Assembly (NCBI RefSeq): GCF_022346945.1
Contig: NZ_JAKRNI010000004.1
Span: forward strand, 1-64,000
Reading direction: 5' to 3'
DNA length: 64,000 nucleotides
DNA from: Microbacterium sp. ACRRU
GTDB lineage: Bacteria; Actinomycetota; Actinomycetes; Actinomycetales; Microbacteriaceae
Below, one piece after another: positions 48,187 through 51,720 of this stretch. Numbering within the stretch: the stretch's first letter is position 1; every line of letters starts with the position of its first letter. Below the pieces are notes generated by a model. That model ran no database searches. It saw only the letters and a program-made list of their open reading frames with translations, and was not told the DNA's origin. The position numbers and the translations under genes were made by a program.

Positions 48187-49245
48187 CTACTGAGCGGGAC
48201 GGGGCCCGTTCGCCGTATACCGGCGCGGGATGTTCGGCGAGACGCGCAGCGCGATCTCCTCGCCGATGGTGTCGATCATCTCGGCGAGGTCGGTCGCGGA
48301 TGCCGCGCCTCCGCGCCCGAACACGGTGACCTCATCACCCTCAGCGGCGCCCGGCCACCCGTCGATGACGCTCGTTGTGGGTTCGATGGCGAGCACACGG
48401 CGCGGCCCGGCGGGCGTCGTCGCCGAGAAGCGTCCCGCGAGAGCCGAGGGCACCCCGTGCAGGTGGCCGATGTCGACACGCACGCGATCCGCGTCCACGT
48501 CGGTCACGGTGGCGACGAGGCCCCCGATCGGCTCGATCCCGAGTTCCGCCTCCCCCGGCCCGCCCGCCGGACGGATGCCGTACGAGAACGCCCCCACGCG
48601 CACGAGGTCCTCCCGGAACGGGGCCCGTGCGAACCCGGCCGCGCTGGCGGCCAGGTGCGAGAACGTCGGGGACAGGCCGGCCGCGACGGCCGTCGAACGT
48701 GCGGCGAGGAAGATCTCGCGGGCGTCGTCGTCGTCGGCGTCCGAGGCTTCCGCGATGTGCGACCACAGGCCCTCGAAACGGGCGACTCCGGAGTCGACGA
48801 GACCCGAGAGGAGCTCGAGCGCCGCGCTCCACCGCTCGGGACGGATGCCGTTACGGTGCAGCCCCGTGTCGATCTTGAGGTGGACACGAGCCGGGGTCGA
48901 CGGCACGGGGAGGTGTGCGAGGTCGTCGAGGAGGGCTTCGTCGCCGATGCCGAGATCGAGGTCGTCGGCGATGCCGTCTGCGAGGTCCTGGGGGCCGCCC
49001 AGCAGCCAGACGAAGATGCGCGCCTCGGGGCCGACGACGGCGCGGACCGCGCGACCCGTCGCAACGTCGAACGCGCCGAACCACTCGACGCCTTCGGCCC
49101 ATGCGCGCTCCACGATCCGCTCGAGGCCGTGCGCATAGGCGTCGTCCTTCACGACGAGCATGTGCCGTGCGGGCGCGATCGCCGCGCGGACCCGCGCGAG
49201 GTTCCGAGCGAAGGCGTCGAGATCGACCTGGTAGATGGCACTCAT
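48187..49245 (-). CDS. Alanine racemase-like barrel subunit, no recognisable SYG tyrosine motif
   Basis: A 352-residue fold-type III PLP protein. The barrel is complete: the PLP-binding Lys33 in VVKDDAYAHG (usual KADAYGHG), KIDTGLHRNG (~124-133), SHIAEASD and VRVGAFSYGIRP (~216-226). The C-terminal domain is diverged: the SYGxT motif carrying the catalytic Tyr is not recognisable, and VDIGHLHGVPSAL replaces the GYADG strand, while GDEVTVFG and the terminal SPNIPRRY remain. It starts 4 bases inside the stop of a small Alr C-domain gene that keeps the missing motifs. In normal Alr dimers the Lys of one chain works with the Tyr of the other, so I infer a heteromeric racemase making D-alanine for peptidoglycan. 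A diverged homodimer or another PLP role is possible. Confidence 0.8.
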   Translation of the reverse strand: MSAIYQVDLDAFARNLARVRAAIAPARHMLVVKDDAYAHGLERIVERAWAEGVEWFGAFDVATGRAVRAVVGPEARIFVWLLGGPQDLADGIADDLDLGIGDEALLDDLAHLPVPSTPARVHLKIDTGLHRNGIRPERWSAALELLSGLVDSGVARFEGLWSHIAEASDADDDDAREIFLAARSTAVAAGLSPTFSHLAASAAGFARAPFREDLVRVGAFSYGIRPAGGPGEAELGIEPIGGLVATVTDVDADRVRVDIGHLHGVPSALAGRFSATTPAGPRRVLAIEPTTSVIDGWPGAAEGDEVTVFGRGGAASATDLAEMIDTIGEEIALRVSPNIPRRYTANGPRPAQ

Positions 49246-49886
49246 GCGACCACCGTCCGAACAGCGCGCGAGCCGACCGTTGCGACGATCTCGGCGGCGC
49301 TCCAGCCCGTGGCATCCGTCCACTCGCTCAGCGACGGGTGCCCGGCGTCCGGGTCGCCGAAGAACACCACGTCGCTTCCGCGTCGCGGTCGTGCGTCATC
49401 GACGTCGACGACGCAGACGTCCATGGCGACGCGCCCGACGATGCGGTGACGGTGCCCGGCGATCGAGACGTCGACGGTGTTGCCGAGCGAGCGGACCACG
49501 CCCTGCGCGTAGCCGCCGGTGACCAGGGCCACGGTGGTGTCGCGGCTGGCGCGGTGCGTGTAGCCGTACGACACCCCCTCGCCGGCCAGGAGCGGCTTGG
49601 TGCCGAGCACGCGGCCGTGCAACGCCATCACCGGGCGTGCGCGGGGGTCGCCGCCCGGCAGGCCGAATAGCGTCTGCGCGTCGATGCTCTCGGCATCCAC
49701 CTCGAGCGATGTCAGAACGGATGCCACCCACGCGGCGCCGTGCCCCCACGCGTCAGCCGCCAGCGGGTCGATGAGCCCGCCGCCGGAGGCCAGCGACGCG
49801 TTAGCACGGAGGTTCTGCTCCGACAGACGAGCCACCGGAGTCACTCCCCCGCCGCTATCGGAACGGTCGGGAGGCGTGGAGGTCAC
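49242..49886 (-). CDS. Alanine racemase-like small subunit, barrel mostly deleted
   Basis: A 214-residue protein. Residues ~20-60 resemble the first part of an Alr barrel, but LAADAWGHG (~42-50) has Ala where the PLP Lys belongs. The frame then passes through ~30 unconserved residues directly to the C-terminal beta domain: SYGYT with the presumed catalytic Tyr107 (Tyr265 equivalent), GGYAQGVVRSL for the GYADG motif, and VGRVAMD with Met155. The last R-x-P-R-x-Y is absent. The pattern complements the downstream barrel protein, to which it is coupled by ATGA. The frame is intact and motifs are retained, which argues against a decaying pseudogene. The GTG start is likely leaderless or nearly so. 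Confidence 0.75.
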   Translation of the reverse strand: MTSTPPDRSDSGGGVTPVARLSEQNLRANASLASGGGLIDPLAADAWGHGAAWVASVLTSLEVDAESIDAQTLFGLPGGDPRARPVMALHGRVLGTKPLLAGEGVSYGYTHRASRDTTVALVTGGYAQGVVRSLGNTVDVSIAGHRHRIVGRVAMDVCVVDVDDARPRRGSDVVFFGDPDAGHPSLSEWTDATGWSAAEIVATVGSRAVRTVVA

Positions 49887-49932: not shown

Positions 49933-50955
49933 ATGCCTCAGCAGGGTTTCTCCCTCGTCCCCCGCCTGCGCTACCTCGCCGGACGCGCCCGCCGCATCGA
50001 CGTCGGCTCGGTCCTCGAGCGCGCAAAAGAGGCGTCGACGCAGCACGGCAAGTCGCTCCCCCTCGTGGTCGCCGACATGCTCTATCAAGCGGGCGTGAAG
50101 AACGTCGGATTCCAGGACTACATCGACTACGACTTCGCCATCCTGACCCCGGCGGAGCGGGCGACGTACATGACCCACCCGGTCTCGAACCAGATCTCGC
50201 AGAAGTACGACCACCCCGACTTCCGGTACATCTTCCAGGACAAGGTCGAGTTCGACCGTCGCTTCAGCGAGTTCCTCCGCCGCGACTGGATGGTCGTCGA
50301 CGCCGACAACGCCGACGAGCTGCGGGCGTTCACCGAACGCCTCGGCACGATCGTTACGAAAGAGCCCGTCGGACAGGCCGGCACCGGCGTGCACCGGTAT
50401 CACGCGGCCGAGATCGAGGACTGGACCGCCTTCCACCGCGGGCTGCTCGAGCGCGGCGAGGTTCTCGTCGAAGAGGTCATCCGCCAGCACGACGACCTCG
50501 CGGCCGTGTGCCCCGGCACGGTCAACACGACGCGCGTGACGGCCTTCTTCGACGGTGAGAAGACGCACATCCTCGCGATGGCGCAGAAGTTCGGCCGCGG
50601 CGCGGTGAGCGACCAGATGACCTTCGGCGGCTTCTACACGATGCTGGACGAGAACGGTCACGCCCTGGGCGCCGGCTACGACTCCCACGGTCATGTGCAC
50701 GAGGTGCACCCCGACTCCGGCGTCCGAATCGGCGACTTCCAGCTGCCGTTGGTCGACGAGGTGAAGGCGTTCGTCGATCGCGTCGCCCGCGTCGTGCCGC
50801 AGGTGCAGTACGTCGGGTGGGACATCGTCGTCGGTCCGGACGGTCCCGTGCTCGTCGAGGGCAACTGGGGCGCCGGCGTCTATGAGAACAAGCCCAGCGT
50901 CACGGGCATCCGCACCGGACACAAGCCGCGTTATCGCGCCGCGATCGGGTTCTAA
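49933..50955 (+). CDS. ATP-grasp family protein (sugar-transfer-associated type)
   Basis: A 340-residue protein resembling the ATPgrasp_ST family. The middle holds TIVTKEPVGQAGTGVHRY (ATP-lysine and loop), VLVEEVIRQHD, then NTTRVTAFFDGE, and the C-terminal VQYVGWDIVVGPDGPVLVEGN carries the metal-binding Asp/Glu/Asn. Such enzymes form amide or ester bonds using ATP; relatives are linked to surface polysaccharides or peptide tailoring. The substrate is unknown. It is divergent from the alanine racemase-like pair and ends at a strong terminator, so it stands as a single gene. Confidence 0.75.
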   Translation: MPQQGFSLVPRLRYLAGRARRIDVGSVLERAKEASTQHGKSLPLVVADMLYQAGVKNVGFQDYIDYDFAILTPAERATYMTHPVSNQISQKYDHPDFRYIFQDKVEFDRRFSEFLRRDWMVVDADNADELRAFTERLGTIVTKEPVGQAGTGVHRYHAAEIEDWTAFHRGLLERGEVLVEEVIRQHDDLAAVCPGTVNTTRVTAFFDGEKTHILAMAQKFGRGAVSDQMTFGGFYTMLDENGHALGAGYDSHGHVHEVHPDSGVRIGDFQLPLVDEVKAFVDRVARVVPQVQYVGWDIVVGPDGPVLVEGNWGAGVYENKPSVTGIRTGHKPRYRAAIGF

Positions 50956-51021: not shown

Positions 51022-51716
51022 TCAGGCGGGGCGGACGATGCCGAGCGGCGTCGACTCGTGTCCCTGGCCGAGCGGGTTGTCTTTGAGGATCGTGACGAGA
51101 CGCTTCTCGCCGGCCTTGTCCATCGTGGACCCGAGGATGTTGCCGCCCAGGTCGTTGATGTCGACGACGGCGACTTCGAGGTCGATCCCGAGAAGCGCCT
51201 TCAGGCGCGCCGCGACCTCGCGAGGGCGCTCCGGCCCGAGCACCACGGCCTGGTTGTACGGCGGGATCGTGCCCTTGGTAGGGCCGTCGATCGCGCGGGC
51301 TTTGTCTCCCGCGATGCGGTAGAAGTCGCCCTTGCGCCCGAACGCCTTGGTCACGGCCGACACGGCAGCGGCGAACAGGATGCGCGGAGTTCCGCACTCA
51401 CGGAGGGCCATCTCCATGGTCTCGGGCATGCCGAGGCCGATGCCGTACGGGGTCCGCGTGACGTACTTCGACAGGAAGAGCGCCAGCTTGCGGGGCTTGA
51501 TCGAGTCGAGCTTGAACGAACGCCCTTGCGTGATCGCCACGATCTTTTCGGTGACGAACAGCAGGTCGCCCGGCTGAACGGCATCCTTCGCGTACTCGAG
51601 GATGAACGCGTCGAGGTCGTCGCCCGGCATGACGACCCGCGTGCGGATCGGGATGCGCGCGTACGTGCTGCCCTCGACGGTGACGGTGAGCGCCTTCCCG
51701 GCGTTGGCCTGCCCGC

Positions 51717-51720
<4 letters not shown>
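51022..51720 (-). CDS. CofE-like F420-0:glutamate ligase family protein
   Basis: A 232-residue protein of the CofE fold, which in F420 makers adds glutamates to the cofactor. Similar regions are [31 protein letters not shown] and the C-terminal HESTPLGIV. It is close in size to stand-alone CofE, but no other F420 biosynthesis gene is visible here, so a different peptide-ligase role cannot be excluded. The ATG overlaps the rpoD stop by 4 bases, so it is translationally coupled to the primary sigma factor. Confidence 0.75.

Follow-up and report, generated by a model that had tools for sequence, protein, structure and literature searches.

In the window (the whole 64,000-nucleotide stretch of Microbacterium sp. 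ACRRU DNA that was analysed), two genes related to alanine racemase (Alr) adjoin on the minus strand, the small gene first and then the large one, with the following features:

48187..49245, minus strand: large subunit gene (352 amino acids, ATG start), with an intact fold-III barrel bearing the PLP lysine Lys33 and a degenerate C-domain without the catalytic tyrosine
49242..49886, minus strand: small subunit gene (214 amino acids, GTG start), an Alr C-terminal domain without the PLP lysine and with the barrel mostly deleted
49242..49245, minus strand: ATGA overlap of the small-gene stop and the large-gene start
49147..49149, minus strand: Lys33 codon of the large protein, equivalent to Lys39 in Geobacillus Alr, read by hand
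49566..49568, minus strand: Tyr107 codon of the small protein, equivalent to Tyr265 in Geobacillus Alr, read by hand
48259..48261, minus strand: Glu329 codon of the large protein; in the alignment, this residue takes the place of the specificity residue Tyr354

An earlier note on this DNA had located both genes and their ATGA overlap correctly but left the strand unstated, and both in fact run on the minus strand. From the overlap we infer that translation of the two genes is coupled.

To follow the active-site residues beyond the window, we used an alignment of 14 large proteins to scan named genomes and kept the best 80 of at least 593 stretches as loci. Row L011 of alignment A2, which was out of frame, was dropped before counting. 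Residues were read, in Geobacillus numbering, at fixed columns of a profile built from 16 full-length Alr-type proteins, one of them the complete second tandem copy of L037; these reference rows were chosen by their Lys and SYG/SYD motifs, so that their 16/16 for both is by construction. Among the 81 large proteins (window plus best 80), Lys39, Tyr43, Arg136 and His166 were each present in all 81 and Arg219 in 80, L108 being cut by a contig end. Tyr265 occurred in none of the 81 (deleted in 80, not reached in L108), and a second alignment, in which the stretch around Tyr265 is deleted from the large-protein C-domain, placed no Tyr within four columns of it in any of them. SYG/SYD motif matches did turn up in 27/81 large proteins but were discarded as candidates, 15 lying at the barrel end near residue 220 and the other 12 around residue 60, with none at Tyr265. 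Conversely, all 80 small proteins (window plus best-80 loci) carry Tyr265, Arg290, Arg309 and Met312, and 79 of the 80 carry Tyr284 and Asp313; in the window, the small protein retains Tyr107, Tyr126, Arg132, Arg152 and Met155. Lys39 was found in 0/80 small proteins of this set, ten of which were unaligned at that column; a motif search found none either. Neither chain thus holds both catalytic bases, and the gene pair taken together does.

In PMC3146814, the equivalents of Tyr265, Tyr284, Arg290 and Arg309 are assigned to the opposite monomer, with Tyr354 and Ile352 on the monomer that bears the lysine, and Met312 and Asp313 likewise belong to the monomer opposite the one with Lys39 and Tyr354 (PMC3146814, PMC4517790). 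By these published assignments, the two genes divide the active site along the monomer–monomer boundary of Alr. The reciprocal Lys/Tyr partition that the earlier note had claimed for the window recurs in the best 80 named loci, as far as the contigs reach, and in 17 of 17 pairs elsewhere (below): the split is real, very well conserved and more than chance.

Domain matches and predicted folds agree with this division. The large protein gave a complete Pfam Ala_racemase_N match (E 2e-44) and, for Ala_racemase_C, positions 73–127 only, at 25.8 bits against a cut-off of 25, while the small protein matched positions 1–126 of the 127 in Ala_racemase_C (E 2e-31) and gave no Pfam match to Ala_racemase_N. 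Neither chain, then, combines Ala_racemase_N with a complete Ala_racemase_C, and both fall short of the 168-bit equivalog cut-off of NCBIfam TIGR00492 (large, 108.9 bits; small, 98.7 bits). AlphaFold models had pLDDT values of 94.8 (large) and 89.8 (small). Compared with whole Alr chains, the large model scored a best Z of 41.8 (5fag_B; 346 residues aligned, rmsd 1.7); the prediction is thus of an entire Alr chain, with a C-domain that is degenerate rather than wholly missing. This refines the earlier claim that the large gene lacks the Tyr motif, which held: the C-domain is still predicted to fold, though degenerate and with the Tyr265 stretch deleted. For the small model the best Z was 23.2 (rmsd 2.7) over 201 residues spread across chain positions 11 to 382, so that it would correspond to an Alr fold minus most of its barrel, as the earlier note had it: Pfam sees the C-domain only and the structural match spans the barrel gap. 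PDB sequence matches listed for either chain were alanine, serine, lysine, histidine and broad-specificity racemases plus one engineered protein.

Seventy of the best 80 named loci are titled Microbacterium, and two of the 80, L073 and L097, share one chromosome, that of M. sufflavum SSW1-51, where the two copies of the pair lie far apart; the L073 copy is preceded by a co-directional ATP-grasp gene, and its fetched 21 kb show neither a sigma factor nor a gyrB/parE-type gene. The earlier note had proposed looking for the adjacent pair in relatives, and both genes were there in 79 of the best 80 loci, the small gene directly upstream of the large in each; the remaining locus has a contig end 120 nt from its start. 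With our choice of starts, the 4-nt overlap occurs in 68 of the 79 loci of this set that have both genes. Across the genus, the large gene was found at E <= 1e-98 in 296 of 366 genomes and in 278 of the 340 good ones, counts that cover the large gene only, and 70 of the 366 lack it at that threshold. That absence, together with the loss of an essential residue from each chain, is what one would expect if the genes were decaying pseudogenes or functionless remnants. Against such decay, dN/dS was 0.15–0.31 for the large gene and 0.12–0.27 for the small gene in all 11 comparisons of near relatives of our choosing, the large gene is kept in most genomes of the genus, the gene overlap is conserved, and every catalytic residue survives on one of the two chains. 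Purifying selection acts on both genes, which are not decaying, and we give the remnant explanation a negligible chance.

Beyond Microbacterium, we chose 20 regions from other genera of the family among homologue-search matches, comprising 17 split pairs and three tandem pairs. Complementary residues were found in 17/17 of the split pairs, which come from ten further genera, and the tandem pairs (L165, L166 and L167), at another locus, keep both bases in both copies. In genus g58 (3/3 loci) the small partner has a full-length barrel with Asp at Lys39 and would, from its sequence, be an intermediate stage of loss. We also came across full-length Alr-like proteins with both bases and either His (L196, L201, L202, L204–L206, L232) or Ala (L233–L235) at position 354, which perhaps have other racemase specificities.

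Genus g78 carries a second split, reversed in order and at another alr locus, in 5/5 sampled genomes (G140, G077, G192, G238, G278): the large gene comes first (with Lys39 and Tyr354, without Tyr265), followed by the small one (with Tyr265, and Lys39 replaced by Thr). Among the proteins with a C-domain in these five genomes, which also have further barrel-only matches, none with both bases was found, and so this split pair probably serves D-alanine; D-amino-acid transaminase matches were far below the family cut-off (best 64 versus 277 bits), and g78 may have another source of D-alanine besides the split pair. In genus g74, all five sampled genomes (G073, G136, G188, G234, G274) have a single frame in which a Lys-bearing barrel is followed by a Tyr-bearing C-domain. 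These fusions are alanine-type, and G234 also has the window pair's relatives in fused form (832 residues), its C-domain matches being confined to the two fused frames. In G136 (2.1 Mb, 99% complete), the 629-residue fusion frame is the sole C-domain match, the sole other barrel match above cut-off is a stand-alone 242-residue frame, and no transaminase matched at E <= 0.001; the other three g74 genomes carry an additional frame with both bases. D-alanine is generally essential, and the g78 and g74 genomes therefore argue that a site assembled from two half-dead parts works. In a barrel tree, the large halves of the alanine-type splits of g78 and g74 (L199 and L200, one representative each) fall outside the window's clade.

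Taken together, we consider it likely, at a probability of roughly 80%, that the large and small proteins assemble into a heteromeric PLP racemase whose single active site is composite. In this enzyme, the large subunit would contribute the barrel with its PLP lysine and the contacts to phosphate and pyridine. The small subunit would add Tyr107 as second base and, at the entryway, Tyr126, Arg132, Arg152 and Met155, which are those contributed by the other monomer in a normal Alr homodimer. The alternative site, from the small-protein barrel and the large-protein C-domain, would be dead, its barrel being mostly deleted. We infer the physical complex, its activity and its single active site from this distribution of residues, and conservation, the natural single-frame fusions and the complete tandem copies in three genera all support the heteromer with one Lys/Tyr site that the earlier note had envisaged. 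A different division of labour, in which the large protein alone catalyses a Tyr-free reaction and the small one acts as regulator or chaperone, would draw on the barrel PLP-site residues and complete Alr-like predicted fold of the large protein, and because that protein retains a folded C-domain of its own in the model, a large–large dimer is possible. A regulator, on the other hand, need not preserve the partner-facing site residues, each kept in 79–80 of the 80 small proteins of the best-80 set, and two such halves are fused in another genus; we regard activity of the large protein by itself as quite improbable.

The composite racemase would not be the only one in its genome. At C22:80567-81637 of the window's genome (99.99% complete) lies a full-length alr with both domains and with Lys39, Tyr265 and Tyr354, which makes the pair an extra racemase locus; D-alanine would come from this canonical gene. 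Similarly, complete Ala_racemase_C was found away from the pair in 23/23 other pair-bearing genomes, being split or fused in G140 and G073. The earlier note had named what would tell against its proposal: a canonical alr elsewhere together with a large protein active alone, or close relatives that keep the large gene without the small one. The canonical alr was found, and such relatives were not seen, the small gene being absent from just the contig-end locus among the best 80.

The residue at position 354 also sets the pair apart from Alr. In place of Tyr354, which lies in the inner layer of the Alr entryway, Glu was found in 80/80 large proteins covering the site (window and best 80), and all 17 large proteins of other genera have an acidic residue there (10 Glu, 7 Asp). 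Tyr354 is described as keeping Alr alanine-specific, with Thr or Ala at that position in lysine-preferring racemases, in which docked D-Lys has its side-chain nitrogen close to Thr391 (PMC3485190), and Asp or Glu at the 354 site of a thermophilic Alr lowered its alanine activity (PMC4517790). The acidic residue and the canonical alr elsewhere make the label 'alanine racemase' doubtful for the pair: of the earlier note's description, kinship to racemases stands, and alanine as the substrate is doubtful, the substrate probably being something else. Were the heteromeric enzyme to act on alanine, it would be a second alanine racemase, in keeping with its closest solved relatives, mostly alanine racemases, and with the separate g78 split that keeps Tyr354 and probably serves D-alanine. 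Alanine is nonetheless an unlikely substrate given the canonical alr of the window genome, an acidic residue in every large protein of the clade that covers the site (best-80 set and the 17), and the absence of the large gene, at E <= 1e-98, from 70 of the 366 genomes of the genus, which indicates that it is dispensable.

Arguing from position only, an acidic residue 354 would suit a substrate with a side-chain amino group. Since the locus is rich in peptidoglycan genes, our guess for the heteromeric racemase, at about even odds, is a basic amino acid (ornithine, lysine or diaminobutyrate) supplied in its D-form for the cross-bridge of type B peptidoglycan. In PMC10757982, where the diamino acid is mostly given by cluster, 12 of 13 pair-bearing named species with an entry are D-ornithine species, in a comparison whose sequenced strains are not all type strains: M. 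testaceum, M. proteolyticum, M. oxydans, M. maritypicum, M. paraoxydans, M. hydrocarbonoxydans, M. galbinum, M. sufflavum, M. excoecariae, M. indicum, M. nanhaiense and M. sorbitolivorans. M. enclense, listed there as an L-lysine species, carries the pair (L038), an exception that counts against a role confined to D-ornithine.

The stretch that holds the pair is bounded by the principal sigma factor gene and a gyrB/parE-type gene; its further contents vary by genome and in the window include:

49933..50955, plus strand: divergent ATP-grasp gene (PF14397) beside the pair, the proposed user of its product
51022..51720, minus strand: F420_ligase-family (CofE-like) gene behind the sigma factor gene

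Four nucleotides (51717-51720) are common to the CofE-like gene and the end of the principal sigma factor gene, to which this ligase-like gene may be coupled. Scoring loci cut by contig ends as without the neighbour, we found the CofE-like gene in 61 of the best 80 named loci, where ATP-grasp genes also occur, MurJ in eight, and MurT and GatD homologues in 11 (L051, L069, L083, L089, L090, L094, L096, L103, L104, L112, L115). Of the 17 loci from other genera, 13 have MurT and GatD homologues close to the pair, on either strand; in L158–L160, L162, L164, L170 and L176 these lie between the sigma factor and small genes. They appear to occupy the place held by the CofE-like and ATP-grasp genes in the window, as expected of a modular slot for peptidoglycan genes. 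On the substrate reading given above, a neighbouring ATP-grasp or Mur-type ligase would use the D-form of the basic amino acid.

We inspected the same stretch in 19 of the 70 genomes without the large gene, having dropped G368 (68% complete) from an initial 20. The stretch from the sigma factor gene to the gyrB/parE-type gene was present in 19/19, with no Alr-like gene within it in any, and it held CofE-like and ATP-grasp genes in 17 and MurT and GatD homologues in two, one of which has the parE–DUF7455 order inverted. Two consecutive ATP-grasp genes occur in eight of these 19 pair-less genomes (L145, L147–L149, L152–L154, L157). Two ligases would suit a bridge of the Gly/L-Lys type made in two steps.

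In a tree of the ATP-grasp proteins, those from loci with the pair (77 rows) and without it (25 rows) are unmixed, requiring three label changes compared with 22.6 in shuffles. A species tree from the gyrB/parE-type gene (111 rows, 19 of them pair-less) also needs only three, and the association could therefore reflect ancestry alone; we count it as weak support rather than proof of shared function, since the species tree separates the labels nearly as well. M. enclense (L038:5532-9354) and L057 have a different upstream cassette, with MurJ and two ATP-grasp genes, beside large proteins 77–78% identical to that of the window, which suggests an exchange of the cassette next to the pair. Cassette type was considered as a marker of L-lysine versus D-ornithine and rejected, given that M. 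nanhaiense and M. sorbitolivorans, D-ornithine species in PMC10757982, share the M. enclense cassette of a co-directional ATP-grasp gene and MurJ.

As to origin, a quick barrel tree (95 rows) grouped the large proteins as one clade (48 rows, 99*) separate from canonical Alr, and the complete second tandem copies L165, L166 and L167 fall inside it, already with Glu or Asp at 354. By this tree, the acidic residue 354 came first and loss of the Tyr later. The tandem-duplication origin proposed in the earlier note gains from these complete copies in three further genera, with the refinement that, by the tree, the duplicate carried its acidic residue 354 before the Tyr was lost. Quick trees also hinted at two or more independent origins within the window's clade, an idea we did not retain because the AU test did not reject a single clade (p 0.061 for the 45 Tyr-less large proteins; p 0.87 for the 44 small proteins, for which the one-clade tree in fact scored better).

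If correct, the composite-site reading would provide a clean natural case of a homomer turned into an obligate heteromer by reciprocal loss, on separate overlapping genes and with several stages preserved: a complete tandem pair, a full-length partner that has lost its Lys, a partner with the barrel deleted, and a fusion. If the substrate reading also holds, it would point to genes, for a racemase and for a ligase, that are responsible for the D-diamino acid in type B peptidoglycan. A wider proposition, that Microbacteriaceae have obligate heteromeric PLP racemases built from two reciprocally broken paralogues, with a single composite site per pair, that type B peptidoglycan owes its D-diamino acid to the window pair as the missing racemase, and that Alr of sister genera has likewise been split or fused, with a single-chain pseudo-dimer as the sole Alr found in one genome, we consider evenly poised between right and wrong. 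No paper found in the literature searched, largely non-subscription, appears to describe a heteromeric, heterodimeric or split alanine racemase, or such genes for type B peptidoglycan.

Alanine racemase is a textbook example of a homodimer as well as a drug target. Canonical Alr (PF01168 plus PF00842, TIGR00492) resembles the pair in the fold of both chains, the PLP lysine motif and the composite site at the dimer interface; it differs in being a homodimer with Lys and Tyr on one chain, whereas the pair has them on two genes and has Glu in place of Tyr354. In enterococci, the D-aspartate ligase Aslfm and an aspartate racemase provide a precedent for a racemase gene beside an ATP-grasp ligase that places a D-amino acid in peptidoglycan, a system similar to the pair by idea only, its racemase belonging to a different family. 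The lysine racemase Lyr and the broad-specificity racemase Bar (4DZA, 4DYJ; PMC3485190), both among the structural matches to the two models, share the fold of the pair and a residue 354 other than Tyr, which may admit larger substrates, but they are homodimers with Thr or Ala at that position, in contrast to the Glu or Asp of the pair and its bases on two chains. Similar in the way it works is the trypanosomatid deoxyhypusine synthase, which, as described in PMC3663545, likewise combines a catalytically impaired paralogue with an inactive one, albeit in a eukaryotic and unrelated enzyme.
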